The notes under the pieces are model-generated. The model was not told where the DNA came from, made no database searches, and saw only the letters and a list, made by a program, of their open reading frames with translations. Of a stretch of DNA of 64,000 nt, positions 24,991-41,468 are shown piece after piece. The translations under genes were made by a program, and so were the position numbers. Source of the stretch: Roseimicrobium sp. ORNL1 (lineage in GTDB: Bacteria > Verrucomicrobiota > Verrucomicrobiia > Verrucomicrobiales > Verrucomicrobiaceae); NCBI RefSeq assembly GCF_011044495.1, contig NZ_CP049143.1:1116001-1180000 (forward strand), written 5' to 3'. The stretch's first letter is position 1. Every line of letters begins with the position of its first letter.

Positions 24991-25014
24991 AATCCCGCGC
25001 CCGCCCTGCTCAGC

Positions 25015-28000
25015 ATGAAACGCATCTGGAACCATCCCGAAGTGAAATCCGAGCGCCGCTACTGGCGTAGTCTCGGTGAATATCAGCAAACGCCTGAATT
25101 CACGGAGAAGCTCGGTCGCGAGTTCGATCCCGGACTTGCCCAGGGAGAAAAGCAAGGGGAAGGCGAAGGCGAAACCCGCCGCGACTTCATGAAGGTGATC
25201 GGCGGTATTGCCGCCATGGCCGGTCTGGCAAGCTGCCGCCGCCCGGTGGAGAAGATTCTCCCCTTCACCAAGCACGTGGAGTGGATCATTCCCGGCAAGG
25301 CTCTTCTGTACGCCACCAGCATGCCGCGTCCCTGGGGCGCCACGCCGATGGTGGTGGTCACGCATGAAGGTCGTCCGACTCATCTGCAGGGCAACCCGCA
25401 TCACCCTGGCGGTGGCGGTCTCGATATCTTTGCGCAGGCATCCGTGCTGGACCTGTACAATGACAACCGCATCAAGCATCCGACGCGCAAGAAGAAGGAG
25501 CACTCTTGGGGTCAGTTTCAAAAAGAGCTGCGTCAATGGAATGAGACCGGTTGGAGCAAGGGTGGCGGCGAAGGCCTGGCCATTCTGACCAGCCCGAGCT
25601 CTTCTCCCACGCGCACCGCGCTGTATCAGGAGTTCACCAAGACTTATCCGAAGGCGAAAGTATTCGTCTACAGCCCTGTGGCTGGCGCTGGTGAAGCAGC
25701 GGTTGTGAAGGCCAGCCTTGGCGAGAACGTGCATCTCGTGCCGAACTTCGAAAAGGCAGAGCGCATCTTCTCCCTCGACAGCGACTTCCTCGGTCTCGAT
25801 GCCTCGTCCGACAACGGCACGAAGCAGTTCATGAAGTGGCGCGGCCCCTCCAGCAAGGAGGACAAGATGAATCGCCTCTATGTGCTCGAGAACCGCTTCA
25901 CCCTCACGGGTGGCATCTCGGATCACCGCCTGCCGGTGGCTGCCAGCATGATTCCGCAGGCTGCTGCAGTGCTCGCGGAAGAACTGGGCAAGGCTCTTGG
26001 CAATGCCGCTCTTTCCCAGTCCGCCTCGGCTCTCGCCGCTGGTGCGAGTGAAGATCTTCGCAAGTGGGTCGCCATTGCAGCGAAAGACCTCGCAGAGCAG
26101 AAGGGCAAGTCCCTCGTGCTCGCCGGCGCCCGTCAGGGTGAGGCCGTGCAGGCTCTCGTGCTGAGCATCAACCAGGCGCTTGGTGCCATTGGTGCCACGC
26201 TGGACACCTTCACCGTGGATGCTGTGAAGTCCGCTGGCGACGTCGCCGCTCTCGTGGCTGACATCAAGGCCAACAAGTTCAAACAGCTCATCATCACGGC
26301 AGACAGCGATCCTGCCTACGACGTCCCCGGCTTTGAAGAAGCCGTGAAGGGCGCCAAGGAAATGGGTGTGGTGCAGCTCGCGCTCCGCCCGAACTACACC
26401 GGACGCATTGCCGATTGGGTGCTTCCCGCGGCGCACTACCTCGAGTCCTGGGGCGATGCCCGCACCTCGAACGGCACCTACGGCATCGCGCAGCCGATGA
26501 TTCAGCCGCTCTTCGGTGGCGCTTCGGAAATCGAACTTCTGCTGGCCATGCTTGGCCGCAAGCGCATCGGTCCGGCTCCTGCACCGGCTCCGGTTGCTGC
26601 CGCCGCTCCTGCGGATCCCAAGGCCGCACCTGCTCCTGCCCCGGCGCCCGCCGCGGAGGAGTCTGATCCTGCCTATGAAGCCGTGAAGGTCACCTTCGCG
26701 AAGCTCGCGGGCGGCTGGGACCAGGAAAAGTGGGACATCACCCTGCGTGACGGTTTCCTCGCCGGTTCTACTGCTACCAAGGCCACCGCTTCTGTGAACG
26801 TAGGCGCGCTCGGCACCATCATTGGCAATGCCAAGAGCGCCGCCGCTCCCACCAAGGAAGCGTTTGAAGTCGTCCTCACCGCTGACGCCAGCGTCTTTGA
26901 CGGTCGCTACACCGACAACGCCTGGCTGCAGGAAGCTCCGGATCCCATCACGAAGCTGACTTGGGACAACGCTGCCTGGATGAGCGTCCGCACCTTCCGC
27001 GAGCTCGGTCTCAAGGAAGATGGCGACATGGTCAAGGTCACCGTGAACGGCAAGGAGCTGACGCTCGCCGTCGTGCAGTGCCCCGGTCATGCGCACAACT
27101 CCGTGACCATCCCGCTGGGCTACGGCCAGAAGGCCGCCAGCGCCGTTGGCAAGGATCGTGGTTTCAATGCCTATCCGCTGCGCAACAGCACGAGCGATTT
27201 CATCCTGACCGGCGCCAAGGTTGAGGATGCCAAGGATCATTACCAGCTGGCCATCACCCAGGACACCTACACCATGGAAGCCCGCGCTCAGGTGCGCGAA
27301 GGTTCCAAGGCCCGCTTCGAGGAGAACGAAACCTTCGCCGCGACCGAAGGTATGGACTCCCACATTCCGCCGGTGCTGACCCTCTACAAGGGTCGCGTGG
27401 GCGTGAAGAGCGAGGAGAATCCTCACGGTTTCGACTACGAGAACGAGCACCAGTGGGGCATGGTCATTGACCTCTCCAAGTGCCTTGGTTGCTCCGCTTG
27501 CATCGTGGCCTGCCAGAGCGAGAACAACATCGCGGTGGTCGGCAAGGAACAGGTGCGCATGGGCCGCGTGATGCAGTGGATCCGCATGGACCGCTACTTC
27601 TCCACCAGCGACGACGTCACGACCGATCCGAGCCTCGAAGAACTGGACAATCCGGAAATGGTCAGCCAGCCGGTGGCCTGCCAGCAGTGCGAAGCCGCTC
27701 CGTGCGAAACGGTCTGCCCGGTGAACGCCACGGTGCACACGGAAGAAGGCCTGAATGCGATGGCCTACAACCGCTGCATCGGTACCCGCTACTGCGCAAA
27801 CAACTGCCCGTATACCGCCCGCCGCTTCAATTTCTTCGATTGGAACAAGCGCAATCCGTTCATCAAGACGGAAGTGCTTGGCATCAAGATGAACAACTTG
27901 AAGGCCGGCCCGCTGGGCGAGAGAGCCCCGCAGGAAGTGCAGCAGCTTCAGAAGAACCCGAACGTCACCGTGCGTATGCGTGGTGTCATCGAGAAGTGCA

Positions 28001-28332
28001 CCTACTGCGTGCAGCGCCTTGAAGAAGCGAAGATCCGCCAGCGCCGTATCGTCAAGGACGACGCCACCAGGCTGCGCATCCCTGAAGGCTCTCTCAAGGT
28101 GGCCTGTCAGGCTGGTTGCGCCGCGGATGCCATCTCCTTCGGTGACCTCGCCAATCCGGAAAGCGCCGTGGTCAAGGCCAAGGCCAACCCGCGCAATTAC
28201 GAAGTGCTGAAGTACATCGGCACGCGTCCGCGTACGAGCTACCTCGCGCGCATCCGCAACGTGAATGAAGAGCTTCTCAAGCTCGACACTCGCGCTCGCA
28301 GGGCCGGTGAGGCCAGCAAGTTCAACATCTGA
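25015..28332 (+). CDS. actB: Alternative complex III subunit B, molybdopterin-oxidoreductase-like / 4Fe-4S protein
   Basis: This 1105-residue protein starts with the extended Tat domain (RRYWRSLGEY at about 14-23, then TRRDFMK at 54-60) found on ActB-type proteins, indicating folded export by Tat. Residues about 75-810 resemble the catalytic subunit of molybdopterin oxidoreductases; in known ACIII this part holds no molybdenum. The C-terminus is a ferredoxin-like domain with four cysteine clusters: Cys823/826/829/833, Cys889/892/897/901, one near 921-931, and a split one near 995-1040. It passes electrons between the quinol site and ActA hemes. An Ala/Pro-rich insert sits at about 520-548 and looks like a linker. 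A twin export system component (tatC) lies at 48273. Confidence 0.95.
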   Translation: MKRIWNHPEVKSERRYWRSLGEYQQTPEFTEKLGREFDPGLAQGEKQGEGEGETRRDFMKVIGGIAAMAGLASCRRPVEKILPFTKHVEWIIPGKALLYATSMPRPWGATPMVVVTHEGRPTHLQGNPHHPGGGGLDIFAQASVLDLYNDNRIKHPTRKKKEHSWGQFQKELRQWNETGWSKGGGEGLAILTSPSSSPTRTALYQEFTKTYPKAKVFVYSPVAGAGEAAVVKASLGENVHLVPNFEKAERIFSLDSDFLGLDASSDNGTKQFMKWRGPSSKEDKMNRLYVLENRFTLTGGISDHRLPVAASMIPQAAAVLAEELGKALGNAALSQSASALAAGASEDLRKWVAIAAKDLAEQKGKSLVLAGARQGEAVQALVLSINQALGAIGATLDTFTVDAVKSAGDVAALVADIKANKFKQLIITADSDPAYDVPGFEEAVKGAKEMGVVQLALRPNYTGRIADWVLPAAHYLESWGDARTSNGTYGIAQPMIQPLFGGASEIELLLAMLGRKRIGPAPAPAPVAAAAPADPKAAPAPAPAPAAEESDPAYEAVKVTFAKLAGGWDQEKWDITLRDGFLAGSTATKATASVNVGALGTIIGNAKSAAAPTKEAFEVVLTADASVFDGRYTDNAWLQEAPDPITKLTWDNAAWMSVRTFRELGLKEDGDMVKVTVNGKELTLAVVQCPGHAHNSVTIPLGYGQKAASAVGKDRGFNAYPLRNSTSDFILTGAKVEDAKDHYQLAITQDTYTMEARAQVREGSKARFEENETFAATEGMDSHIPPVLTLYKGRVGVKSEENPHGFDYENEHQWGMVIDLSKCLGCSACIVACQSENNIAVVGKEQVRMGRVMQWIRMDRYFSTSDDVTTDPSLEELDNPEMVSQPVACQQCEAAPCETVCPVNATVHTEEGLNAMAYNRCIGTRYCANNCPYTARRFNFFDWNKRNPFIKTEVLGIKMNNLKAGPLGERAPQEVQQLQKNPNVTVRMRGVIEKCTYCVQRLEEAKIRQRRIVKDDATRLRIPEGSLKVACQAGCAADAISFGDLANPESAVVKAKANPRNYEVLKYIGTRPRTSYLARIRNVNEELLKLDTRARRAGEASKFNI

Positions 28333-28355
28333 TTTCCTACTGATCCTTACCCGTC

Positions 28356-29825
28356 ATGGCGCAATCCGCGACAGCATCCTCCAAAGCACCGGCCACGCCG
28401 CGCATTCTTGAGCGCGAGCCCCTGGTGCTTAACAACCGCAACTACGCCTGGATCACGAACCGCATCTGCGGCATCGTGGAAAACAGGCAGCCCACCTTGT
28501 GGTGGTTGCTGTTCGTACCCTCAGTGATGCTGACCAGCATCATGGTGTTCGGCTTTGTGTACCTCATCTCCACCGGCGTCGGTGTGTGGGGCCAGAAGCA
28601 GCCGGTCGCCTGGGCGTGGGACATCACGAACTTCGTGTTCTGGATCGGTATCGGCCACGCCGGTACGCTGATTTCCGCCATTCTCTTCCTTACCCGGCAG
28701 AAGTGGCGTACCGCGGTGAACCGCGCGTCGGAAGCCATGACCCTCTTCGCGGTGATGTGCGCGGGCCTGTATCCCGCCTTCCACGTCGGTCGTGTGTGGA
28801 TGGTGTGGTTCCTCGCTCCCGTGCCAAACGCGAATGCCGTCTGGCAGAACTTCAAGTCCCCGCTGCTGTGGGACGTGTTCGCGGTGTCGACGTACTTCAC
28901 CGTGTCCGTGCTCTTCTGGTACCTCGGCCTCGTGCCTGACCTCGCCACCCTGCGTGACCGCTGCAAGGCTGGCATCAAGAAGACCCTGTACGGCATCTTC
29001 GCCCTCGGCTGGCGCGGTGGTAACCGTCAGTGGAACCACTATGAAATGGCGTACCTCCTTCTGGCCGCCCTTTCCACCCCGCTGGTGCTCTCCGTGCACT
29101 CCGTGGTGTCCTTCGACTTCGCCACCTCCGTTGTCCCTGGCTGGCACACCACCATCTTCCCGCCCTACTTCGTGGCAGGCGCCATCTTCGGTGGCTTCGC
29201 GATGGTGCTGACCCTGATGATTCCCGTGCGCGCCATCTACGGCCTGCACGACCTCATCACGGCGAAGCACATCGACAACATGTCGAAGATCATCCTGCTG
29301 ACGGGAACCATCGTGGGCTACGCCTACTGCATGGAGCTCTTCATGGCCTACTACAGCGCCAGCAAGTATGAGCGCGATGCCTTCCTTCTCCGTACGATCT
29401 ACGGACCGAGCTGGCCCTATTACTACGCGATGTTCTTCTGCAACGTGATCGCCCCGCAGCTCTTCTGGATCAAGAAGATGCGCACCAACCTCATCTCCGT
29501 GATGATTGTGTGCATGTTCGTGAACGCGGGCATGTGGTATGAACGCTACGTCATCATCGTGACGACCCTTGAGCGTCACTTCATGCCGGGCTCCTGGAGG
29601 ACCTTCGACGCCACCTGGGTGGACAACTGGACCTTCATCGGAACCTTCGGGTTCTTCCTCATGAACTTCCTTCTGTTCCTCCGCTTCCTGCCGGTGATCG
29701 CCATCGCGGAAGTGAAGGGCGTGGTACCGCAGTCCAATCCGCACTTTGACGACCACGGCGAGCGTGGTGTCCACGAACTTCAACCCGGGGTGTTTGGCAA
29801 TCCGGAACTGCCCAACAAGGCCTAA
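28356..29825 (+). CDS. actC: Alternative complex III subunit C, NrfD/PsrC-type quinol-site membrane protein
   Basis: This 489-residue integral membrane protein of the NrfD/PsrC family has about ten hydrophobic helices. Segments such as [18 protein letters not shown] and [32 protein letters not shown] match the conserved ActC/ActF core, where quinol binds near the periplasmic side and conserved His and Asp residues line a proposed proton path. It anchors ActB to the membrane. Its spacing of 23 bases after actB and 26 before actD fits one transcript. Confidence 0.95.
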
Positions 29826-29851
29826 TCACCCAGCCCACGAGGAAACCAATC

Positions 29852-30409
29852 ATGGCGAAGACCACCCTCAAACGAGTACACGGCTACCTGGCGGAGTTCG
29901 AAAGCGCCTCGGACGTGTATCATGCCTCCGAGAAGATCCGTGACGCGGGCTTCCAGCGCTGGGACGTGCACTCCCCGTTTCCCATCCACGGCCTCAATGA
30001 AGCCATGGGTGTGAAGCGCTCCACGCTGCCCTACTTCGTGTTTTTCGGCGGCGCCACGGGCACGCTCACCGCGTTCCTTCTGGCCTACACCACCCAGGTG
30101 ATAATCTACCCCACCGTGGTGCAGGCGAAGCCGACGAACATCTTCACGACGGCGGCTTTCTTCCCCATCATGTTCGAGTTGACGATTCTGTTCTCGGCGT
30201 TCACCACGCTGTTCGGCTGCTTCGCCTTCATGGGCCTGCCCCGCTTGAATCACCCGCTTTTCGCCTCGAAGCAGTTCAAGAAGTTCTCGGACGACGGCTT
30301 CTTCATCTGCATCGAAGCACGCGACCCCAAATTCCATCAGGCGGAGACCAAGGCGCTCCTTGAGGAGATTGGCGGCAAGAACATCGAACTGGTGGAGGAC
30401 GAACTGTAA
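29852..30409 (+). CDS. actD: Alternative complex III subunit D (DUF3341)
   Basis: This 185-residue protein has two membrane helices (roughly 62-88 and 106-130) and the DUF3341 opening LAEFESASDVYHASEKIRDAGF with WDVHSPFPIHGL. ActD is a structural subunit of ACIII without cofactors; its exact role is not established. Length and position between actC and actE are as in known operons. Confidence 0.93.
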   Translation: MAKTTLKRVHGYLAEFESASDVYHASEKIRDAGFQRWDVHSPFPIHGLNEAMGVKRSTLPYFVFFGGATGTLTAFLLAYTTQVIIYPTVVQAKPTNIFTTAAFFPIMFELTILFSAFTTLFGCFAFMGLPRLNHPLFASKQFKKFSDDGFFICIEARDPKFHQAETKALLEEIGGKNIELVEDEL

Positions 30410-30428
30410 GAGTTCCCGGGCTCAATCC

Positions 30429-31091
30429 ATGAAATACTTTTTCATCATCTACATCCTGGTAGCGGTGGCTGTTGTGAGCTTCGCCGGCTTCCGTGGTCAC
30501 AAGACGGAACAGACTCCGTGGGAAATCTTCCCGGACATGGACCGTCAGGCCAAGGTCAAGTACCAGCGCGCCAGCAACTTCTTTGAAGACGGTCACGCCA
30601 TGCGTCACCCGGTGACGGGCACCATGCCAATCGGTTTCGTGATGCCCAGCAAGCCCGCCAGCGAGGGCTTTGAGAAGCAGGAATACGGCTTCACCCACGG
30701 CACCAGCTACTACTACACCGGCAAAATCGGTGACTTCTACGGCGACGGCTTCCCGAAGGAAGTGACGGTGGACACCGCACTGCTCAAGCGCGGCCAGGAA
30801 CGCTACAACATCCATTGCGCGATCTGCCACGGCGCCTCCGGCAACGGCAAGGGCATGGTCACCAAGTACACCGTGGTGGCTCCGACTGACCTCACCGGCC
30901 CCGGCATTGATGATCCCGCCAACCCGACCTATCGCCCCGATGGCAAGATCTACGATGTGATCACCCACGGCTGGAACCAGATGGGCTCCTATGGCGCCAA
31001 CGTTTCCGTGGAAGACCGCTGGGCCATCGTCGCCTACGTGCGCACGCTCCAGCACGCTGTGAAGAACCCAGCCCCCGCCCCTGCCAAGTAA
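30429..31091 (+). CDS. actE: Alternative complex III subunit E, monoheme cytochrome c
   Basis: This 220-residue protein has an N-terminal hydrophobic anchor (about 3-20) and a single heme c motif CAICH (130-134) with a class-I cytochrome fold after it (GASGNGKGMV, then a predicted Met ligand in the NQMGSYG region). ActE is the terminal electron-exit cytochrome of ACIII on the periplasmic face. The open frame extends upstream, but the ATG at 30429 puts the anchor at the N-terminus. The C-terminus ends in a short Ala/Pro tail (NPAPAPAK), a feature shared with several other products of this operon. Confidence 0.93.
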   Translation: MKYFFIIYILVAVAVVSFAGFRGHKTEQTPWEIFPDMDRQAKVKYQRASNFFEDGHAMRHPVTGTMPIGFVMPSKPASEGFEKQEYGFTHGTSYYYTGKIGDFYGDGFPKEVTVDTALLKRGQERYNIHCAICHGASGNGKGMVTKYTVVAPTDLTGPGIDDPANPTYRPDGKIYDVITHGWNQMGSYGANVSVEDRWAIVAYVRTLQHAVKNPAPAPAK

Positions 31092-31110
31092 AGGCCACAC
31101 TCCTGTCCGC

Positions 31111-32451
31111 ATGCATCATCCCCTGACACTCGACGACCTGCCACGCGACGGCGAGAAGCTGGATCTGGCCAAGATCAGCAAGCTCAACGGCATCCTCCTC
31201 ATGGTGGGTGGCATTGGAGCGATCATCTCGCTGATCTACCTCTTCGGATTCGCCAACACCAAGGACGAAGCAGGCCATGTGATCAATCGCCAGGGCGAGT
31301 TCGCCTACTCCTGGCTGTTCGCCTTCTTCTTCTTCTTCACGATCAGCTGCGGTGGCGTCTTCTGGACCATGCTGCAGCATCTTTCCAACTCCGGTTGGAG
31401 TGTGGCTGTGCGCCGTCTCTTTGAAAACCTGGGCGGCAGCGTGAAGTTGATGGCGGTGCTCGCGCTCCCCTTCCTCCTCATCCCCGGCGTGCGCGACTCG
31501 TTGTGGGAGTGGATCGTGGTGCATCACCACGCCGCTGAAGTGGCCAAGGCACAAAACCTTGCCGGTGGCACCCAGGAAGCCCTGCACAACATGCATGAGG
31601 TGATCCTCGCAGAGAAGTACGGCTACCTGAACACCACCTTCTGGTACATCCGCGCCGTGTTCTACTTCGCGTTCCTGATTGGCATCATCGGTTTGCTTCG
31701 CAAGTGGAGCATCCAGCAGGACAGCGACGGTGACTTCAAGCACACCTTCCGTGCCCGCGCGCTCTGCGCCTTTCCGCTGCTCTTCTTCGCACTCACCGTG
31801 ACCTTCAGCGCAGTCGACTGGGTCATGAGCATGGACTACACCTGGTACTCCACCATGTGGGGCGTGTACATCTTCGCCGGCGGCGCCTGGGCGGCCATGG
31901 CGGTCTCCATCCTTGCGCTCACCTATGTGCGCAGCAATGGATACCTCAACAAGATCGTGACGGGTGAGCACTACCACCTCATGGGCAAGCTGCTTCTGGC
32001 CTTCACCATCTTCTGGGCCTACATCGCCTTCAGCCAGTTCTTCCTCATCTGGTATGCGAACATCACGGAAGAAACGCGCTTCTTCATCCTGCGAAACACC
32101 GGCCCTTGGTGGTACCTGAGCAACATCCTCGTGTGGGGCCATTTCGTGGTCACCTTCGTGGTGCTGCTCTCCGCAAGCCGCAAGAAGAAGACCACCATGA
32201 TGAACTGGGTCTGCGCCTGGGTCCTTCTCATGCACCTGGTGGACTGGTACTGGCTCGTCATTCCCGAGCGTGGACCTTCCCTTTCCAAAGGCGGCTACCT
32301 GATCAGCCCTGGTGCCTGGGTGGGTGATGTCATCGCCTTCCTGACCGTCGGTGGTCTTGCCGGCTGGGCTTACCTCCGCCGCCTTGCCAGGGCCAGCCTC
32401 TATCCCTGCCGCGACCCGCGCCTGCTGGAGTCCGTGACCGCCATCAACTAG
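31111..32451 (+). CDS. actF: Alternative complex III subunit F, NrfD-like membrane protein
   Basis: This 446-residue polytopic protein has about ten helices and is paralogous to ActC. It has a soluble N-terminal start (LDDLPRDGEKLDLAKISKLN) and the characteristic FSAVDWVMSMDYTWYSTMWGVY segment of ACIII ActF. Known structures place it beside ActC in the membrane, contributing a possible proton channel. It begins 19 bases after actE. Confidence 0.94.
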   Translation: MHHPLTLDDLPRDGEKLDLAKISKLNGILLMVGGIGAIISLIYLFGFANTKDEAGHVINRQGEFAYSWLFAFFFFFTISCGGVFWTMLQHLSNSGWSVAVRRLFENLGGSVKLMAVLALPFLLIPGVRDSLWEWIVVHHHAAEVAKAQNLAGGTQEALHNMHEVILAEKYGYLNTTFWYIRAVFYFAFLIGIIGLLRKWSIQQDSDGDFKHTFRARALCAFPLLFFALTVTFSAVDWVMSMDYTWYSTMWGVYIFAGGAWAAMAVSILALTYVRSNGYLNKIVTGEHYHLMGKLLLAFTIFWAYIAFSQFFLIWYANITEETRFFILRNTGPWWYLSNILVWGHFVVTFVVLLSASRKKKTTMMNWVCAWVLLMHLVDWYWLVIPERGPSLSKGGYLISPGAWVGDVIAFLTVGGLAGWAYLRRLARASLYPCRDPRLLESVTAIN

Positions 32452-32484: not shown

Positions 32485-33168
32485 ATGTCATCAACCGCGA
32501 CACAACCACCTTCCCGCGCTCTCACCACCACGCTTGGCGTGCTGGCGGCGATTGCCAGCTTTGCCGTGCTGGCCGTGCTGTTCCAGTGGGCTGGCGGCGG
32601 CGCTCCCGAGGATACGCGTCACGAGCAGGCCCTGCAGAAGAAGGCCGACCTCCAGAAAGAACAGCAAGCCCTGCTGGTGAAAACCGGTATCGCCGGAAAC
32701 ACCGAAGCCGTCTTCGCCAAGGCTCTTGAAAGCATCAAGACCCGCCAGCAAGCTCCCAGCAAGGTAGTCGTTCCTGGATCCAAGACTGCGCTGGCACAGG
32801 CCGCTGCTGCCGCCCCGGCACCGGCTCCCGCCGCTGCCCCCGCAGACAAGAAGGCTCCTGAAGCTCCCGCCGCTGCACCGGCTCCAGCTCCAGCACCCGC
32901 CCCAGCTGCGGAACCCAAGCCAGCTCCGGCTCCTGTAACACCAGCTCCCGCACCTGCCGCCGCCCCGGCCCCAGCACCTCAGCCGACTCCCGCCCCGGCT
33001 CCTGCCGCTGGCGCACGGGTCGAGCCGCCGCTGCCGGTCAAGGAGGCTGAAGCCGCCCCGGCTGCCCCGGCACCCGCTCCGGTTCCCACGACTCCTCCCG
33101 CCGCGCCGCCGCCCCCTGTCTCTGCTCCTCCGCCGGCCCCCGCTCCTCCCGCACCGAATCCCCAGTAA
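32485..33168 (+). CDS. Membrane-anchored Ala/Pro-rich protein of unknown function
   Basis: This 227-residue protein has one N-terminal helix (about 14-34), then a charged probable coiled-coil (EQALQKKADLQKEQQAL, 46-75), and from about residue 95 to the end an almost pure Ala/Pro repeat with occasional Lys, Gln and Val. Such tails are extended and flexible. Its place after actF is where some ACIII operons have actG, a small membrane subunit, but no sequence likeness to ActG was recognised. It is most likely a periplasm-facing tether or spacer within the respiratory assembly. It could also be poorly constrained; the clean reading frame, with spacing of 33 and 24 bases, argues that it is real. 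Confidence 0.7.
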   Translation: MSSTATQPPSRALTTTLGVLAAIASFAVLAVLFQWAGGGAPEDTRHEQALQKKADLQKEQQALLVKTGIAGNTEAVFAKALESIKTRQQAPSKVVVPGSKTALAQAAAAAPAPAPAAAPADKKAPEAPAAAPAPAPAPAPAAEPKPAPAPVTPAPAPAAAPAPAPQPTPAPAPAAGARVEPPLPVKEAEAAPAAPAPAPVPTTPPAAPPPPVSAPPPAPAPPAPNPQ

Positions 33169-33192: not shown

Positions 33193-34713
33193 ATGGCGAC
33201 CACTGACTCGTCCGTCTCGAACAGCGACAGCCTGCGCCGCGCGGCCATTGACCGCTCGGTGAAAGGGCCGGTGCTATTCCTTTTCGCTAATGCCGCCATG
33301 TGGCTGCTGGCTGCGACCTTGATGGGCTTGATTGCCTCCATCAAACTGGTCTCCCCTGACTTCCTGAACAAGGACTGGCTCTGGTTCTTGAACTACGGTC
33401 GTCTTCAACCCGCTCACATGGCTGCGCTCGTTTATGGCTGGGCCATGCAGTCCGGTCTGGGCGTGGCGATCTGGCTCCTTGCCCGCCGTAGCGGACAGGC
33501 TCTCTCCGGTGGTGCCGGCACCATGCTTGTGGCAGGCATCTTCTGGAACGTGGGTGTTACTCTCGGCGTGGTCGGTATCCTCTCCGGCAATGGCACGGCG
33601 CTGCAGTGGCTGGAGTTCCCCTCCTTCGTCTGGCCGGTGCTGCTCATCCCGTACCTCGTCATCGCGGTGAAGATGATTGTGCACTACAACCGCGCGAATC
33701 GTCAGCAGGGTTTCCACCTCACCTCCTGGTACATCCTCGCAGCGCTGCTGTGCTTCCCTTGGATCTTCCTCACCGCTAACTTGGTTCTCAACTGCTTCGC
33801 GGCCGTCACGCCCCTCGGTGCCATCGGCGCAGGTGTGAATGCGTGGTACGTGAGCGCGGTGATCATGCTCTTCTTCGCTCCGCTGGGTCTTGGCGTTTGC
33901 TATTACTTCATCCCGAAGATCACCGGCCAGCCGGTGTACAGCTACCAGCTCGCGCAGATCGGCTTCTGGGGTCTCATCATCCTGGGCGGCTGGAGCGGCT
34001 TCCAGAAGTACATGGGTGGCCCGGTTCCCTCCTGGCTTGCTGCCGTGGGCGGCATGGCCACCATCCTGCTCCTCGTGCCCGCGGGCATCGTGGCGCTGAA
34101 CCATCACCTGACCACCACGGGCAAGCACAGCCTCATTGAGACCAGCCCCACACTGCGCTTCATCTTCGTGGGTTCCGCCTCTTTCCTTGTGACCTGCGGC
34201 ATCGCCGCCCTGACCAGCAATTTCTGGACCGGCCCGAACTTCCAGTTCACCCACGCGGAGTACGGCTACCACCTCGCCGCCGTCTACGCCTTCTTCAGCA
34301 TGACGATGTTTGGCGCCATCTACTACATCACGCCTCGCCTCGCGGGTTGTGAGTGGCTCAGCGCCCGTCTGATTCGCAACCATTTCTGGTTCTCTGTGTA
34401 CGGCATCGCCGCGCTGGTCATCTGCATGGTGATCGGTGGTCTTGCCCAGGGTCAAAGCCAGAACAACCCCGACAACTGGAACGCCTTGTTTGTCGGCAGC
34501 ATCAAGAATGCCCAAGGCTATCTCGTGGGCCGTGTGCTCGCCTGGGCGTTCATCCTCTGGTCGAACTTCTGGTTCTTCACGCACCTGGTCTTCATGGTTC
34601 TCGGCCTTGGCCGCCGCAGCGTGGCTCCCACCCTGCTGGTCCATGATCACCACGACGAGCATGCAGCCCCTGTGCCTGCTCCCACGCATCCCCCGGCCTC
34701 CGCGACGGTCTAA
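33193..34713 (+). CDS. CcoN-like heme-copper oxidase subunit I lacking CuB ligands
   Basis: This 506-residue polytopic protein aligns by eye with CcoN of cbb3 oxidases: NYGRLQPAHMAALVYGW (low-spin heme ligand His75), YYFIPKITGQPVYSY and IYYITPRLAG. The expected CuB histidines are missing. The CcoN pattern WYGHNAVGFF reads WYVSAVIMLF here (218-227), and the GPHHLHY region reads GWSGFQKY (266-273). The HVH pair that binds the two hemes is reduced to Tyr-His-Leu (His360). It therefore cannot reduce oxygen in the normal way and may at most hold one heme b. It is followed by CcoO-like and cytochrome c genes and precedes a full aa3 oxidase. The C-terminus is His-rich (VHDHHDEH). Confidence 0.88.
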   Translation: MATTDSSVSNSDSLRRAAIDRSVKGPVLFLFANAAMWLLAATLMGLIASIKLVSPDFLNKDWLWFLNYGRLQPAHMAALVYGWAMQSGLGVAIWLLARRSGQALSGGAGTMLVAGIFWNVGVTLGVVGILSGNGTALQWLEFPSFVWPVLLIPYLVIAVKMIVHYNRANRQQGFHLTSWYILAALLCFPWIFLTANLVLNCFAAVTPLGAIGAGVNAWYVSAVIMLFFAPLGLGVCYYFIPKITGQPVYSYQLAQIGFWGLIILGGWSGFQKYMGGPVPSWLAAVGGMATILLLVPAGIVALNHHLTTTGKHSLIETSPTLRFIFVGSASFLVTCGIAALTSNFWTGPNFQFTHAEYGYHLAAVYAFFSMTMFGAIYYITPRLAGCEWLSARLIRNHFWFSVYGIAALVICMVIGGLAQGQSQNNPDNWNALFVGSIKNAQGYLVGRVLAWAFILWSNFWFFTHLVFMVLGLGRRSVAPTLLVHDHHDEHAAPVPAPTHPPASATV

Positions 34714-34737
34714 TTTTCTCCTCCACGTACGTAGCAC

Positions 34738-35448
34738 ATGACTGGTTCCCGCAAATTTCTGTTTGCCCTGGCAGGCGCCTTTAGCGTCCCGTGGCTGATG
34801 GTCATCATCATCCCGGCGCTTCACGCACAAAAGAGGCTCGTTCCCCGGCCTTACGTGAAGGATCGTGATGGCATCGAGGGTGTGTATCCCTCCACCACCA
34901 TCGATCGCCAGGGACAGTTGGTGTTCATCAGAGAGGGTTGCGCCCAGTGCCACACCCAGATGATTCGTCCGAGCTTCGCCGGCATTACCGACGGCTGGAA
35001 GAAGGGCTGGGGCAGCGACCAGAGCGCGCAGCCCAAGCACGTGGTGCGCCCGAGCACCTGGGAAGATTATATGGGTGAGCCGGTGGCTCCGTTGGGCATC
35101 CAGCGCATTGGCCCTGATCTCGCCAACTACGGCTATCGCGCCCCGAGGAACGGTGGTGAGGTGGATCGTGCGGCCATCCACCTGAAGCTGTTTGCCCCGC
35201 GCGCAACCAAGGAGACCGCCTGGAGCATCATGCCGTCCTTCCGTCACCTCTACAAGGTGAAGCCCATCGAAGGCAATGGTTCTCCCAAGGCCCTGAAGCT
35301 TCCGGCTGACCTGCCCAAAGATTACCGCCCTGCGAAGGGTTATGAAGTGGTGCCCACCGAAGCGGCGGAGCAACTGGTCGACTACCTGCTTTCACTGAAG
35401 AAGGACTCCCCCGTGCCCGGCAAAGTCGTGGCTGAGGACGCGAAATAA
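34738..35448 (+). CDS. CcoO-like membrane-anchored monoheme cytochrome c
   Basis: The 236-residue protein has an N-terminal anchor (about 8-28) and the CcoO pattern GQLVFIREGCAQCHTQMIRP with heme motif C68-A-Q-C71-H72. A later RIGPDLANYG corresponds to the RxGPDL segment of CcoO, and the region IMPSFRHLY provides a likely Met ligand. CcoO normally passes electrons to CcoN. Because the adjoining CcoN-like protein has no CuB site, this subunit more likely relays electrons onward to another partner. It lies 24 bases after that gene. Confidence 0.9.
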   Translation: MTGSRKFLFALAGAFSVPWLMVIIIPALHAQKRLVPRPYVKDRDGIEGVYPSTTIDRQGQLVFIREGCAQCHTQMIRPSFAGITDGWKKGWGSDQSAQPKHVVRPSTWEDYMGEPVAPLGIQRIGPDLANYGYRAPRNGGEVDRAAIHLKLFAPRATKETAWSIMPSFRHLYKVKPIEGNGSPKALKLPADLPKDYRPAKGYEVVPTEAAEQLVDYLLSLKKDSPVPGKVVAEDAK

Positions 35449-35459
35449 GGATTGAGCCC

Positions 35460-36185
35460 ATGAACGAAAACGCTCCACAGAATTTTGACGCCACCGACCT
35501 TGACCGCCTGCATGCTGCGGTGAAGCGCGAGAAGCCGGACGTGAGGCCCGGCGCAGAGCCCACGCCGCTCTGGGTCTTCATTGCCACCATGGCTGCCATG
35601 GTCATCGCTGGGGGCTACCTCGGCGCTTACGTCGGCGGTTTTAGCTTCGAACGCAATTCGCCCTTTGATGGCACGCCGGAGGACGTCCGGCCGATCGATG
35701 GGGATAAGGGTCCAGAGCTCGATCCCTTCCAACTCGCCATGAAAAAAGGCGCGGATGTGTATGCTATCTGCGGCGGTTGCCACGGTGTTGCCGGTGGTGG
35801 CCAGCCGGGGGCGATTCCGCCTCTCGCAGGATCTGAGTGGGTGCTCGGCGGTACCGAACGTACGGCTCGCATTGTCCTCCACGGCTTGAGTGGAGCTGTT
35901 CAGGTGAAGGGCGCTACCTACGTCAGCGCGATGCCTCCTCAGGGCGCACTGAACGACAAGGAAATCGCCAACGTGCTCACCTACATCCGCAACTCTTGGG
36001 GCAATAGCGGCTCCATGGTCACACCGGAGATGGTGAAGAAGATCAGAGAGGCGACCGCCTCCCACGCCGCTCCGTTCACCCAGGAGGAGCTTGAGCCCTT
36101 CAAGGACAAGAATATCGAGGGCCCGATTCCCGCCGGCCCCGGCGCTACTGCTGCCCCTGCCGCAGCTCCTGCACCCGCCAAGTAA
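35460..36185 (+). CDS. Membrane-anchored monoheme cytochrome c (CcoP-like position)
   Basis: This 241-residue protein has a cytoplasmic N-terminus, one membrane helix (about 37-58) and a class-I cytochrome c domain with CGGCH at 104-108 and an axial Met probably in SAMPPQG. The C-terminus is an Ala/Pro tail. The topology (short cytoplasmic start, helix, periplasmic heme domain) recalls CcoP, but with one heme rather than two. It lies 11 bases after the CcoO-like gene and 54 before the aa3 subunit I gene, so it may be the direct donor to CuA of subunit II. Confidence 0.88.
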   Translation: MNENAPQNFDATDLDRLHAAVKREKPDVRPGAEPTPLWVFIATMAAMVIAGGYLGAYVGGFSFERNSPFDGTPEDVRPIDGDKGPELDPFQLAMKKGADVYAICGGCHGVAGGGQPGAIPPLAGSEWVLGGTERTARIVLHGLSGAVQVKGATYVSAMPPQGALNDKEIANVLTYIRNSWGNSGSMVTPEMVKKIREATASHAAPFTQEELEPFKDKNIEGPIPAGPGATAAPAAAPAPAK

Positions 36186-36239: not shown

Positions 36240-38195
36240 ATGAGCTCTGCGACTGCCACTCACGACCACTCTCACGCCGATCATGCGCACGAGCATGATC
36301 ACCACCAGCAGAGTTGGCTCTACAAGTACATCTTCTCGACCGACCACAAGGTCATCGGCATCCAGTACGGATTCACCGCAATGGCGTTCCTGCTGTTCGG
36401 TTTCTTCCTAATGATGGTCATGCGCTGGAGCATTGCCTTCCCAGGAGAAGGCATGCCCATCGTGAAACAGGTGTTTCATTGGACCGGACTCAATCTGCTG
36501 GGTGAGCGCTGGGCTCCAGGTGGCGTGGTGACTCCCGAGCTCTACAACATGTTCGGCGCCATGCACGGCACCATCATGGTGTTCCTTGGCATCGTGCCCC
36601 TCGGTTTCGCTGCGTTCGGCAACTATGTGATGCCCCTGCAGATCGGTGCGGTGGACATGGCCTTCCCGAAGCTGAATGCCTGGAGCTACTGGCTCTACTT
36701 CATCGGCGGCCTCATGATGATGATGAGCTTCTTCCTTCCGACGGGCGCTGCCCAGGTGGGTTGGACGAACTACTCCCCACTGGCCACCACGGCTCAGATC
36801 GACGTGAAGGATCTCTTCTGGACCGGTCAGACCCAGTGGCTCATGGCGATGGTGATGCTCATCTCCTCCTCGCTGCTCGGTGCGGTGAACTTCATCACCA
36901 CCCTGCTGAACCTGCGCTGCAAAGGCATGACCTGGATGCGCATGCCGTTCTTCTGCTGGGCGATGCTCGTCACCGCCTTCCTGCTCCTGCTGGCCTTCCC
37001 CCCGCTGGAAGTGGCCGCCATCCTGCAGCTCTTTGATCGCCTCTTCGGTTCCAGCTTCTTCCTGCCGACCGGCCTTGTGGAAGCCAACCGTCACCTCGAC
37101 ATCGCCGGTGGTGGCAGCCCGCTGCTCTACCAGCACTTGTTCTGGTTCCTGGGCCACCCTGAGGTGTACGTGCTCATTCTTCCGGCCATCGCCATCGTGG
37201 CAGAGGTCATCCCTGCGAACATCCGCCGTCCGCTCTGGGGTCACCGCACCATGATCTACGCAGCCTTGGTGCTGGGCTTCCTGAGCTTCATCGTTTGGGC
37301 GCACCACATGTACCTCACGGGCATGGGCTCGGTGGTGAGCACCTTCTTCCAGATCACCACGGTGCTGATCTCGGTGCCATCAGTCATTCTGTTGACCTGC
37401 CTCATGATTTCGCTGTGGGGCGGCTCCATCCGGTTCAACACGGCGATGCTTTTCGCCTGCGCCTTCCTTCCGATGTTCGGTATCGGTGGTCTTACCGGTC
37501 TGCCTCTGGCCTTCAGCTACATCGACCTCTTCCTGCACGACACCTACTATGTGATCGGTCACTTCCACTACGTGGTGGCGCCTGGTACCATCTTCGGTCT
37601 CTTCGCCGGTGTCTATCACTGGTATCCGAAGATCACCGGCCGCTTCATGAATGAGAAGGCTGGCCGCCTGCACTTCTGGCCTTCGCTGGTGTTCATGAAC
37701 CTGCTCTTCGCACCGATGCTGGTTCAGGGCATGGCGGGCTTCCATCGCCGCTGGCATGATGGTGGCGCCGCCTTCGAAGGCACCACGCACGGCACCATGT
37801 GGATCTCCGAGATCGTTGGCGGTGTTTTCCGTCTGTTCGGCTTCACCATGCTGGATCCCAACACCGGCAAGGACATCACGGACACCCTGATGATTCTGAA
37901 CCCGCTCATGTCCTTCGCGGCATGGGGCCTGGCGCTGTCACAGATTCCTTTCATCCTCAATCTGTTCTTGAGCATCAAGGGCGGCAAGAAGGTGACCTCC
38001 GACAATCCCTGGCACGCGACCACGCTCGAGTGGGCAACCCCGACGCCTCCCGGACACGGCAACTTCCTCGAAGAGCCCGTCGTCTACCGCCAGCCCTACG
38101 AATACAGCGTGCCCGGAGCCGAAACGGACTACACCCCCTCTTGGCTGCCTGAGGGAGCGAAGGTGGAGGAAAAACTCACCCACGCCTCGCACTAA
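36240..38195 (+). CDS. coxA: Cytochrome c oxidase subunit I (A-type, aa3)
   Basis: This 651-residue catalytic subunit has all expected ligands: low-spin heme His109 (FGAMHGTIMVF), CuB His306 with the cross-linking Tyr310 and the D-channel Glu308 in GHPEVY, CuB His355-His356 (WAHHM), and heme a3/heme a His441 and His443 (HDTYYVIGHFHYVV). It reduces O2 to water and pumps protons as an A1-type oxidase. The N-terminus has an unusual His/Asp-rich stretch (residues 8-22) facing the cytoplasm, which might bind metal. The order in this operon is I, III, IV, two small proteins, II, whereas subunit II usually comes first. Confidence 0.97.
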   Translation: MSSATATHDHSHADHAHEHDHHQQSWLYKYIFSTDHKVIGIQYGFTAMAFLLFGFFLMMVMRWSIAFPGEGMPIVKQVFHWTGLNLLGERWAPGGVVTPELYNMFGAMHGTIMVFLGIVPLGFAAFGNYVMPLQIGAVDMAFPKLNAWSYWLYFIGGLMMMMSFFLPTGAAQVGWTNYSPLATTAQIDVKDLFWTGQTQWLMAMVMLISSSLLGAVNFITTLLNLRCKGMTWMRMPFFCWAMLVTAFLLLLAFPPLEVAAILQLFDRLFGSSFFLPTGLVEANRHLDIAGGGSPLLYQHLFWFLGHPEVYVLILPAIAIVAEVIPANIRRPLWGHRTMIYAALVLGFLSFIVWAHHMYLTGMGSVVSTFFQITTVLISVPSVILLTCLMISLWGGSIRFNTAMLFACAFLPMFGIGGLTGLPLAFSYIDLFLHDTYYVIGHFHYVVAPGTIFGLFAGVYHWYPKITGRFMNEKAGRLHFWPSLVFMNLLFAPMLVQGMAGFHRRWHDGGAAFEGTTHGTMWISEIVGGVFRLFGFTMLDPNTGKDITDTLMILNPLMSFAAWGLALSQIPFILNLFLSIKGGKKVTSDNPWHATTLEWATPTPPGHGNFLEEPVVYRQPYEYSVPGAETDYTPSWLPEGAKVEEKLTHASH

Positions 38196-38261: not shown

Positions 38262-39791
38262 ATGGAAATCCCATACACCGTAAAAGCCAGACCGGACACC
38301 GGGCTGTGGAATGCCAAGATTGGCGTCTGGCTCTTCCTCGCCTCGGAAGTCATGCTCTTCGGCGGCCTGTTCTCAGCCTACATCTTCCTGCGCCTCGCGC
38401 CGGAAGGTCCCTGGCCGGTGCAGGTGCTGGTGATGGAATGGGGTTTCGTGAACACCCTGATCCTGATTCTTTCTTCAGTCACAGTACTGCAGGCGTGGGT
38501 CGCGCTGAAACTGCGAAAGTTCAACCTCTACCGCATCTGGATGGCGCTCACCATTCTCTGCGCGCTGGCGTTCCTTGGCATCAAGAGCGTCGAGTACAAC
38601 GACAAGTTCCACCACTACGGCGTGCGCCTGCATGATGGCTCGGTCATGGAAGGCCACCTTCCGAAGGACGAGAAGGGCAACCACACCAAATACACGGTCA
38701 GCTTTGAGAATGTGACTTCCGTCACTCTTTCCAGCCGCCCCCAGGACATGGGTCTCTTCGGCTGGAGCTTCTTCCACAACGGCTCGGATGGTGACTTCCT
38801 GAACTACCTCACGGACGGCGAACCAAGGTTCAAGTTTGCGAGCAAGGAAGTTGCGGCCTCTCTGGACCAAAACCCGGACAATGAGATCACGTTGGATTCG
38901 GCAACGGTAGCGAAACTGATGAACGCCGCCCGCAGCCATTACAATGAGAAGGGTGCCTGGGCGCCTATCGCCTCGGTGGAACTCACGGCGGTGAAGCCGC
39001 TCAAGTTCGCCATCCCGGCTGGCAGGATGTTTGACAACTCCTGGACGGAGAAGAATGCTTTCCTCCGCGATGGCACCGTTCTCGCCGGCAAGCTGGCGGA
39101 TGACGACGTGAAGATCGAGGTGGACAAGCTCGACTTCCGCTGGCTCTTCCCCCACCACGAGACCAATGAGGAAAGGGCTTTCGCCGCTGCACTCAATGCC
39201 GATTTGTGGAAGCACATGGGTGCTGACCTGAAAGCCAAGTTCAAGTTGCACCGTGAGTTCCATTTGAAGGAGTTCCACGCCCATCATCCGGACAGCAAGG
39301 ATGGCAAGGAAGTGCGGAATCCGATGCTCAACGACGACTTCGTGCGCAACACGTTCTCAGTGAAAATTGAGACGCTTGAGGGATACAAGCTCGAGGGCGG
39401 GGAGAAGAAGGAGCACAGCTCGGTGGAGTCCTCCAGCGCAGCGTCCCGCGTGGCTGCCGCTACGGAACCTGCACACGGCGCGGAAGCAGCGCACGGAGCT
39501 GGTCATGGTGCACATGAGGCGCATCGCATTCCCCACAAGGAAATCGAGCACTTCTCCAACTTCACTCCGAAATGGCACAACTACTACGCCATCTACTTCT
39601 GCATCACCGGTCTCCACGGTCTGCACGTGCTGGCGGGTGCCATCGTTCTGACCTACTTCCTTCTCTTCGGCAAGAAGCTGTATGACAAGGATCCTGAGCA
39701 CATGGCCAACCGTGTGGAAGTCGGCGGCCTTTTCTGGCACTTCGTGGACCTGGTGTGGATCTTCCTGTTCCCGCTGCTGTACCTCCTCTAG
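38262..39791 (+). CDS. coxC: Cytochrome c oxidase subunit III with a large soluble insertion
   Basis: This 509-residue protein is far longer than the usual 190-260 residues. Helices 1-3 (about 20-43, 60-84, 92-109; GVWLFLASEVMLFGGLFSAY) and the last helices (about 441-468 and 487-508; ITGLHGLHVLAGA, FWHFVDLVWIFLFPLLYLL) are typical subunit III. Between them, about residues 118-435 are a hydrophilic insert with two similar short motifs, DGSVMEGHL (125-133) and DGTVLAGKL (270-278), many charged residues, and an Ala/His-rich stretch near 403-430. The insert has no recognised fold. The frame is continuous, so this is not an assembly artefact visible at this level. The role of subunit III is to stabilise subunit I and its proton intake. 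Confidence 0.92.
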   Translation: MEIPYTVKARPDTGLWNAKIGVWLFLASEVMLFGGLFSAYIFLRLAPEGPWPVQVLVMEWGFVNTLILILSSVTVLQAWVALKLRKFNLYRIWMALTILCALAFLGIKSVEYNDKFHHYGVRLHDGSVMEGHLPKDEKGNHTKYTVSFENVTSVTLSSRPQDMGLFGWSFFHNGSDGDFLNYLTDGEPRFKFASKEVAASLDQNPDNEITLDSATVAKLMNAARSHYNEKGAWAPIASVELTAVKPLKFAIPAGRMFDNSWTEKNAFLRDGTVLAGKLADDDVKIEVDKLDFRWLFPHHETNEERAFAAALNADLWKHMGADLKAKFKLHREFHLKEFHAHHPDSKDGKEVRNPMLNDDFVRNTFSVKIETLEGYKLEGGEKKEHSSVESSSAASRVAAATEPAHGAEAAHGAGHGAHEAHRIPHKEIEHFSNFTPKWHNYYAIYFCITGLHGLHVLAGAIVLTYFLLFGKKLYDKDPEHMANRVEVGGLFWHFVDLVWIFLFPLLYLL

Positions 39792-39835: not shown

Positions 39836-40180
39836 ATGGCACACGACCATCACGACCATGATAGCCCTGAGGCGATCAAAAAGGCGTCGGCTCAAATTTG
39901 GTGGGTTGGTCTCATCCTCGTTATAGGCACCGGCATCACGGTGTGGGCGAGGGAATGGGACATGGGCACCCGCAGCAAGAATATCGCTTTAGGCATGTTC
40001 ATCGCCACCGTCAAAGCTGGGTGCGTAGGACTGATTTTCATGCACTTGAAGAACGAGCGCGGCCTGATCTACAAGTTCTTGTTCTTCACGGTCATCTTCG
40101 CCATCGGATTGTTCGTGCTGACGTACCTGGCGTGGGCTGACCCGCTGCACTCGCACATTATTCCGGCTGTCGAACACTAA
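39836..40180 (+). CDS. coxD: Cytochrome c oxidase subunit IV
   Basis: This 114-residue protein has a His/Asp-rich N-terminus (AHDHHDHDS) and three hydrophobic helices, including VKAGCVGLIFMHLKNERGLIYKF, which is the pattern of the bacterial subunit IV family of caa3/aa3 oxidases. It stabilises the oxidase core and has no cofactors. It lies 44 bases after coxC. Confidence 0.88.
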   Translation: MAHDHHDHDSPEAIKKASAQIWWVGLILVIGTGITVWAREWDMGTRSKNIALGMFIATVKAGCVGLIFMHLKNERGLIYKFLFFTVIFAIGLFVLTYLAWADPLHSHIIPAVEH

Positions 40181-40425: not shown

Positions 40426-40626
40426 ATGGATCTTCTTTCCCCACTCCTGTCCTGTGCCACCTGCATGCCGGACCCTTCCTCGGAAGTGTCCAAGGCGGCC
40501 AGCATGTCCATCATGTTCCTCGGAGTAATCATCCTGGGAATGATGGGACTGTTCATCAAAATCATGTTCAACTTTGCCCGCCGTGAGCGGGAGTTTGATA
40601 AGTCTTCTTCTGCGCCACAGTCATGA
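40426..40626 (+). CDS. Small single-helix membrane protein overlapping coxB
   Basis: The 66-residue protein starts MDLLSPLLSCATCMPDP, with a Cys-x-x-Cys near the N-terminus, and has one helix (about 25-47) rich in Met and Ile, followed by a basic segment (FARREREFDK). The stop overlaps the coxB start as ATGA, so it is translationally coupled to subunit II. The CxxC could hold copper or a disulfide, but that is speculative. An in-frame TTG three codons earlier is an alternative start. Confidence 0.6.
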   Translation: MDLLSPLLSCATCMPDPSSEVSKAASMSIMFLGVIILGMMGLFIKIMFNFARREREFDKSSSAPQS

Positions 40627-41468
40627 ATCTGGACCCCCTCATCGCCGCCATTCCATCCATCAACAAGCTCCTCGGCATTCCCCAGCTTGCCTCGGAGCAC
40701 GGAGAGATGGTGGACCACATGCTGGAGCTGGTGCACTGGTTCATGTTCGTGCTCTTCCTGGGCTGGAGCACGTTCCTGGTGATTGTGTTCACCAAGTTCC
40801 GCAAGGACAGGGCTGCCAAGGCCGACTACGTGGGCGTGCGTGGCCATGCCTCCACCCACATTGAAATCGGCGTGGTGATCGTGGAAGCCATTCTGCTGCT
40901 CGGCTTCGCCTTCCCGCTTTGGGCACAGCAGTCGGTGGGTTATCCCACGGGCAAGGACGTCGTAAAGGTCCGCGCCATGGGTGAGAAGTTTAAGTGGAAT
41001 TTCCAGTACGCGGGTCTCGACAGCACCCTGGGTGGTTATGCGCTCAGGAACATTGGCACCCCCGCCACCAACGAAATGGGCCTCGACCTCAAGGACCCCA
41101 ACGGCAAAGATGACTTCGTGAAGGGTGGTACCCTGACGCTGCCCGTGGGCCGTCCGGTGATCATCGACGTGACCAGCAAGGACGTGATTCACAACCTCGC
41201 CCTCGTCCCCATGCGCGCCGCGCAGGATGCGACCCCCGGTGTGAACGGTCACCTCTGGTTCACCCCGACGAAGACCGGTGAGTGGGACATCATCTGCGGT
41301 CAGCTCTGCGGGGCTGGTCATAGCGGCATGCGAGGCAAGCTGGTGGTGCTGCCCCAGGATAAATTTGACGAGTTCATGAAGGAAGGCAGCGAAGACGCAC
41401 TCAAGAAGGCCAACGCGACTCCTGCAGCTCCGGCTCCTGGCGCTGCCGCTCCTGCCGCCGCGCACTAA
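40623..41468 (+). CDS. coxB: Cytochrome c oxidase subunit II (CuA)
   Basis: This 281-residue protein has two membrane helices (about 36-58 and 82-102) and a periplasmic cupredoxin domain with the full CuA site: His190, Cys225, Cys229, His233, Met236 (CGQLCGAGHSGM). There is no fused cytochrome c domain, so the enzyme is aa3, not caa3, and must receive electrons from a separate cytochrome. The C-terminus is an Ala/Pro tail (ATPAAPAPGAAAPAAAH). It is unusually last in the oxidase gene order, and is coupled to the preceding small membrane protein by ATGA. Confidence 0.96.
   Translation: MNLDPLIAAIPSINKLLGIPQLASEHGEMVDHMLELVHWFMFVLFLGWSTFLVIVFTKFRKDRAAKADYVGVRGHASTHIEIGVVIVEAILLLGFAFPLWAQQSVGYPTGKDVVKVRAMGEKFKWNFQYAGLDSTLGGYALRNIGTPATNEMGLDLKDPNGKDDFVKGGTLTLPVGRPVIIDVTSKDVIHNLALVPMRAAQDATPGVNGHLWFTPTKTGEWDIICGQLCGAGHSGMRGKLVVLPQDKFDEFMKEGSEDALKKANATPAAPAPGAAAPAAAH

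Follow-up and report, generated by a model that had tools for sequence, protein, structure and literature searches.

Loss of metal ligands in a cbb3-like subunit encoded beside alternative complex III in Verrucomicrobiota

Here, we studied a 64,000-nucleotide stretch of Roseimicrobium sp. ORNL1 (contig NZ_CP049143.1, positions 1,116,001 to 1,180,000), referred to below as the window, which is part of a 7.96-Mb chromosome and carries an operon in which three genes lie between those of an alternative complex III (ACIII) and those of an A-type (aa3) oxidase. The three genes encode a membrane protein (N) with the fold of CcoN, the catalytic subunit of cbb3 oxidases; a cytochrome c (O) resembling CcoO; and a second cytochrome c (P). 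The window N has lost the residues that would bind heme b3 and CuB, some relatives in the same operon position have kept them, and on trees of the neighboring genes the state of N changes repeatedly. The explanation that we consider rather likely is that an ACIII-linked cbb3 oxidase has repeatedly become a noncatalytic partner of ACIII, with its cytochromes passing electrons onward, in the window probably to the adjacent aa3 oxidase.

Fold and ligand positions of the window protein

The closest named relatives of the window N belong to the Verrucomicrobiota and include Phragmitibacter, Prosthecobacter, and Brevifollis. Its AlphaFold2 model is confident (predicted local distance difference test score, pLDDT, 90.1; predicted template modeling score, pTM, 0.90), and the five best matches among solved structures are all CcoN subunits of cbb3 oxidases (3mk7, 9g6b, 8smr, 6xkw, and 9g83; Z 44.6-46.0, root-mean-square deviation 2.2-2.5 Å), with the fit to 3mk7 (Z 46.0, 2.2 Å) extending across 444 residues. 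Homology to solved CcoN is also evident in phmmer searches, which matched 9g6b at E = 4e-28 and 3mk7 at E = 5e-27. The curated NCBIfam ccoN model (TIGR00780) gave 127.9 bits, below its cut-off of 583.15, and three relatives with a complete ligand set likewise fell under that cut-off (241.2-253.7 bits). Identity as a nitric oxide reductase was considered and set aside, since such reductases rank below CcoN both in Foldseek and in a second structure search.

Two alignments, one produced by phmmer against the CcoN chains 9g6b and 3mk7 and the other by MAFFT with seven canonical CcoN of the phylum, agree on the residues at the ligand positions. Positions 221, 271, and 272, which we take to be those of the CuB histidines, hold Ser, Gln, and Lys, and position 265, presumably that of the active-site tyrosine, holds Gly. 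Tyr359 stands in place of the heme b3 histidine. From the histidine pair that ligates the low-spin heme (75 and 361), His75 is kept and position 361 is Leu, with a histidine at position 360. The corresponding motifs read WYVSA for WYGHN, GWSGFQK for IWAGPHH, and GYHL for GHVH. All seven residues are present in 7/7 control CcoN in the MAFFT alignment. Six of these controls had been chosen by a pattern that favors His motifs; L002, which was not chosen in this way, keeps all seven residues, as do L254 and L258, all three having been found by phmmer or profile alone.

Because each of these ligand positions was compared and the b3, CuB, tyrosine, and paired low-spin sites are all incomplete or absent, the window N is, judged by its predicted ligands, not a member of the oxygen reductases. 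These results agree with the original prediction, made from the window's letters and open reading frames, which had described a CcoN-like protein with the family scaffold and His75, with lost CuB histidines and a reduced HVH pair, and had held that it cannot be a normal oxygen reductase. The intact CcoO-like monoheme cytochrome and the further cytochrome c that it placed after N, within an ACIII-aa3 operon, were found as well.

Intact and lost copies beside ACIII

A phylum-wide search with the window protein matched 60 of 194 genomes, ordinary CcoN included, and a family profile search matched 212 of 286 genomes of the class at E <= 1e-60. We read N in 175 loci, a nonrandom set that comprises the 80 best matches to the window and others picked to spread over families (one, L071, is a fragment), and refer to N as lost where the b3 His or the CuB set is gone. 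All seven residues are present in 29 loci; two further copies begin after position 75 and keep the other six, and in L202 one CuB His is replaced by Arg and the rest are kept, giving 32 intact or nearly intact copies and 143 lost ones. The less redundant set of 135 rows holds 32 intact and 103 lost. Loss takes different forms: one or two CuB histidines remain in many Verrucomicrobiales, and L036, L040, and L204 keep both low-spin histidines (His75 and His361) with neither CuB nor b3 His. The word "degenerate", as applied to the module in the original prediction, therefore suits the window and the lost copies and does not suit the relatives that hold an intact N in the same operon; ligand loss, the universality of which it had proposed to check, is not universal.

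Pfam COX1 scores in 42 genomes range from 236.5 to 262.4 bits at intact N loci and reach at most 195.3 bits at lost ones. The state of N was read directly in 40 of these genomes (24 of the 26 lost) and for G152 and G169 was taken from COX1 scores of 50.9 and 96.2 bits. A-type CoxA is encoded in 26/26 lost and 13/16 intact genomes. Two of the genomes that lack it, G001 and G146 (1.7 and 1.3 Mb; 99% and 98% complete), have an intact N as their only COX1-family protein, and neither an A-type nor a bd oxidase was found in them; the third, G128, has a CcoN fusion and a bd oxidase in addition to its intact N. Intact N is probably a working oxidase.

Could lost N nevertheless be an active oxygen or nitric oxide reductase, with a rearranged metal site that goes unrecognized? 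The fold is kept, many Verrucomicrobiales loci retain a single CuB His together with a basic amino acid at 272, and stray histidines occur elsewhere (L200 keeps three CuB His without a b3 His; L203 and L206 have His at 359 without CuB). However, the window has no ligand at any CuB, b3, or Tyr position, the replacement residues are heterogeneous between lineages, and the genomes counted as lost all have an A-type CoxA as well, so that we regard such an enzyme as highly improbable.

The place of N is conserved. Among the 163 loci in which ActF was seen, 162 have N on the strand of ActF and within 1.8 kb of it, and intact and lost copies occupy this same place, with O and then usually P downstream. 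The exception is L070 (G072), where 7.3 kb separate ActF from N and are filled by NosZ and NosD genes (L070:9377-19345); given these nos genes, the N-O-P module of L070 may stand beside a second acceptor. As far as the stretches reach, an A-type CoxA follows downstream in 100/143 lost versus 5/32 intact loci.

Both states of N are found within each of the families f3, f5, f11, f70, and f74, and within the genus g26. On a tree of ActB and ActC, the state changes 17 times, at least 13 of them forced by starred branches; the counts are 16 changes (14 forced) for ActE and ActF and 11 (seven forced) for O and P. Of 108 rows outside the outgroup, the 98 whose stretch contains both genes make up the ActB+ActC tree, and the O+P tree covers 94. 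All trees come from "quick" searches, under LG+G4 except for the tree of N, and starred branches with long rows need caution. We read the changes as mainly losses, because regaining seven ligands seems implausible; trees alone cannot separate gain from loss.

Lost copies remain under purifying selection, with ratios of nonsynonymous to synonymous substitution rates (dN/dS) of 0.010-0.247 in 15 lost pairs with unsaturated dS. The ratios are 0.012-0.121 for CoxA in 12 of these 15 pairs and 0.131-0.152 for N in three intact pairs. All pairs were chosen by hand, and two lost pairs and one intact pair were synonymously saturated and gave no ratio for N. That N is the product of a functionless pseudogene in decay is accordingly very unlikely: the residues at the ligand positions vary widely among lost rows and N distance relative to ActB and ActC about doubles after loss, but set against this are the low dN/dS ratios, an N frame that measures 440-560 residues at all but one of the 80 named loci, the confident CcoN fold, and the constant position near ActF. 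Decay in this strain only, which the original prediction would have read from the absence of the gene set in related ACIII operons, is ruled out for N, since the loss is common to relatives and selection is purifying; some genomes with ActB do lack N, as described below.

Cytochromes O and P and the route of electrons

The window ACIII comprises ActABCDEF with 5 + 1 c hemes, and two cytochromes are encoded after N. O matches the FixO model (53.2 bits; cut-off 29.6) and CcoO (phmmer, E = 5e-8), and scores 51.5 bits against the curated ccoO model, below the cut-off of 200.65. Its structure model is weak around the heme (pLDDT 73.5), and a fold search with it gave no match at E <= 0.001. P carries one CXXCH, unlike CcoP with its two c-type hemes, and its heme domain most resembles those of copper nitrite reductases that carry a heme, followed by Thermus cytochrome c552. 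Heme domains of this kind donate electrons to copper sites. O has its heme c motif in 70/70 lost and 26/26 intact rows and P has its own in 69/70 and 26/26, the one exception (L120) being a fragmented locus; 95 of 96 rows retain Met158 of P, which is probably the distal ligand. Across the loci, ActA has five hemes in 134/136 and six in none, and CoxB lacks a CXXCH in 95/95. Within the window operon, CXXCH proteins are limited to ActA, ActE, O, and P. With five hemes in ActA and none in CoxB, O and P are therefore the only further c hemes seen in the operon.

These features suggest the following history. The N-O-P trio would descend from a cbb3-like (C-family) oxidase whose genes settled in the verrucomicrobial ACIII operon, and in part of the phylum it may still provide a complete oxidase route, from quinol to ACIII, P, O, heme b, the heme b3-CuB site, and O2. 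In many other lineages, including that of the window, the active site of N would have been lost on several separate occasions, leaving a folded and selected membrane protein that most probably serves as a scaffold docking two c-type cytochromes to ACIII. Electrons would then exit through P (and through O where it is suited) to another acceptor. This reading presumes a physical complex of N-O-P with ACIII. Because only O and P carry a further CXXCH, and given the type of the P heme domain, we infer for the window a flow of electrons from ActE to (O)/P and on to CuA of the adjacent aa3 oxidase, with P as the CuA donor and N as a scaffold that was formerly the acceptor. Loci without downstream aa3 genes would use some other acceptor.

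A further possibility is that N binds a single heme b, ligated by His75 and either residue 360 or an outside ligand, and acts as an electron or quinol-linked relay in the membrane. Of 142 lost loci, 90 retain His75, and 83 of these 90 have Q, E, D, or H as residue 360; the window has His there, and the three loci that keep the low-spin pair without CuB or b3 ligands would also fit. However, at position 361, that of the partner ligand, the window has Leu and 83 of 176 rows have Ile, Val, or Leu; only 30 of the 103 lost rows of the less redundant set have His75; and inside N no acceptor would be left for a relay to serve. Shared ancestry is a confounder for the polar residue at 360, because many of the loci come from Verrucomicrobiales. 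We think a one-heme relay unlikely.

Several observations weigh against repeated loss in place with onward transfer by the cytochromes. The tree of N itself takes only three changes (118 rows; the 80 named loci L072-L151 are represented by 16, and L065, L067, L069, L071, L176, and L180 are left out), and for six of 12 lost rows queried (L060, L179, L185, L193, L206, and L207) the nearest row is lost, in the case of L179 and L207 a lost member of their own family. No CoxA was seen downstream in 43 of the 143 lost loci, some of which lie on short stretches. Among the 233 class genomes (of 286) with an ActB match, 25 have no N match at E <= 1e-60, by comparison of the lists by eye, and 12 of these belong to one genus (f2 g4). 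Finally, O retains its likely distal Met in 49/70 lost versus 26/26 intact rows, with Cys in its place in 14 lost rows (e.g., L035 and L119).

The first two points also favor an alternative in which lost and intact N would be a pair of ancient paralogues, or of alleles, that were swapped among operons, rather than the outcome of repeated loss in place, because most lost forms group together on the N tree. On the other hand, the other six lost rows queried are nearest to intact ones: L051 to L230 of its own genus, L049, L052, and L178 each to a member of the same family, and both L061 and L166 to other intact rows. L052 falls inside an intact clade on starred branches, and replacement residues differ among lineages. 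The median ratio of N distance to ActB+ActC distance is 0.96 for 16 intact pairs, 2.11 for 90 intact-lost pairs, and 1.86 for 170 lost pairs, and because it about doubles after loss we attribute the few changes on the N tree to attraction of the long, fast-evolving lost copies. Exchange between operons is, on this evidence, a doubtful explanation. Returning to repeated loss, the 43 loci without CoxA mean that the acceptor must differ among lineages and that N is not specifically an ACIII-aa3 bridge. A role as relay or as structural bridge, the latter placed by the original prediction in an ACIII-aa3 supercomplex, is compatible with the data and is favored here without that restriction to aa3. 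Since the likely distal Met of O is often replaced in lost rows, some lineages may have retuned O or bypassed it.

A review places cbb3-type genes beside ACIII in verrucomicrobial methanotrophs and Opitutaceae and regards their product as a cytochrome c oxidase (PMC8498564, citing Refojo 2010). Other papers tie the ACIII-adjacent cbb3 genes to high oxygen affinity in the Kam1 genome (PMC6688271), count cbb3 among the terminal oxidases (PMC10205796), and name cbb3-type oxidase genes beside ACIII (PMC11102522). The gene arrangement is the same as in the window, with cbb3-like genes after ACIII. In contrast to an oxidase, however, N keeps His only at 272 in 7/7 copies read from family f4 (L066, L067, L070, L237, L242, L243, and L251), which appears, from PF02461 and nos-gene markers, to comprise the published methanotrophs: PF02461 is present in 7/7 f4 genomes tested (G252, G238, and G234, whose N copies were read, lie outside those tested), and the nos genes within the ACIII cluster of L070 match the description of M. 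caldifontis (PMC11102522). In G042, G054, G072, and G152, the window protein has just one match apiece at E <= 0.001, so these genomes showed no separate CcoN. Another source lists as a caa3 oxidase three genes directly after ActABCDEF, which may or may not correspond to N-O-P (PMC13274419). Our literature search, which did not cover Refojo 2010, found no description of ligand loss in N.

Other ACIII systems also have an A-type oxidase partner and an extra heme c proposed as the link. According to published accounts, a sixth heme domain of ActA was proposed as the electron carrier to the aa3 oxidase in the ACIII-aa3 supercomplex of Flavobacterium johnsoniae, and a heme c on subunit II of the caa3 oxidase in Rhodothermus marinus (PMC8552683, PMC5928083). 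In the window, by contrast, neither ActA nor CoxB has such a heme, and the additional c hemes belong to O and P, encoded next to N. The broader proposition, namely that N-O-P is a regular extra part of verrucomicrobial ACIII in which the dispensable oxidase chemistry of N was discarded about a dozen times or more, leaving a noncatalytic electron-relay partner, that this represents a third ACIII-oxidase wiring, and that the "cbb3 oxidase" of the methanotrophs is then no oxidase, has in our judgment an even chance of being right. A cbb3-like module beside ACIII was known; what is new is a catalytically dead N within it. If the explanation holds, the catalytic subunit of a terminal oxidase has shed its metal center many times, with the protein and the accompanying cytochromes being retained, and the enzymatic role of such a subunit would be separable from its structural one. 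The complete copies, those with the low-spin heme pair only, and those with none would offer a natural series for testing how ACIII hands off electrons. Where genes are taken as evidence of a cbb3 oxidase in these bacteria, as in papers cited above (PMC6688271, PMC10205796, PMC11102522), the ligands would need to be checked.

Gene order and neighboring features

The genes run on the + strand from ActA-F (24175-32451) through an Ala/Pro-rich protein to N, O, and P and then to the aa3 oxidase with its assembly genes (Table 1). The ACIII subunit names are partly putative, assigned by gene order and homology. A Pfam search gave no match for ActF, and neither a heme motif nor a Pfam match was found in the Ala/Pro-rich protein.

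Table 1. Features of the ACIII-N-O-P-aa3 region, in window coordinates
Feature	Description	Position	Strand	Basis
ActA	Pentaheme cytochrome c of ACIII (five CXXCH, no sixth)	24175..24990	+	CXXCH count, synteny
ActB	Molybdopterin-like/iron-sulfur subunit of ACIII	25015..28332	+	
ActC	Membrane (NrfD-like) subunit	28356..29825	+	Synteny
ActD		29852..30409	+	Synteny
ActE	Monoheme cytochrome c	30432..31091	+	Start is an ATG picked by eye within ORF 30360-31091
ActF	Second NrfD-like membrane subunit	31111..32451	+	Named by order, synteny
Ala/Pro-rich protein	One N-terminal membrane helix by eye	32485..33168	+	
N	CcoN-fold protein without heme-copper ligands, 506 amino acids	33193..34713	+	Alignment, predicted fold
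O	CcoO/FixO-like membrane-anchored monoheme cytochrome c; CXXCH and Met165	34738..35448	+	
P	Monoheme cytochrome c, membrane anchor by eye	35460..36185	+	
CoxA	A-type (aa3) oxidase subunit I; ligand motifs present by eye	36240..38195	+	
CoxC	Subunit III, long internal insert	38262..39791	+	
CoxD	CoxD/subunit IV-like	39836..40180	+	Named by position
CoxB	Subunit II with COX2 (CuA-type) domain, no CXXCH	40623..41468	+	

The window CoxC has 509 residues, with its long insert placed between membrane parts; relatives have 560-629 residues and others 203-277. In F. johnsoniae, this subunit is reported to contact ACIII (PMC8361435).

Some loci depart from the gene order of the window. In the two loci read from genus f2 g4 (L226 and L228), ActA- and ActB-like genes alone were recognized, with ActC, ActE, ActF, and N unrecognized nearby. 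In L227, from the PF02461-bearing genome G008, ACIII is followed by CoxC, CoxD, and CoxB, and N, O, and P were not found in the stretch, an apparent loss of the whole module. An additional monoheme cytochrome c lies immediately upstream of N in 31 lost loci; in the window, the Ala/Pro-rich protein is encoded between ActF and N. Divergent COX1-like proteins were also seen in other settings. In L221 and L223, a second such protein (478 and 499 residues) adjoins a B-type-like oxidase subunit and a cytochrome b/ferredoxin-like protein, the types being assigned by eye, and in L222 (1898-4998) one of 460 residues is followed by a frame with a stretch that is CcoO-like by eye and a second CXXCH.

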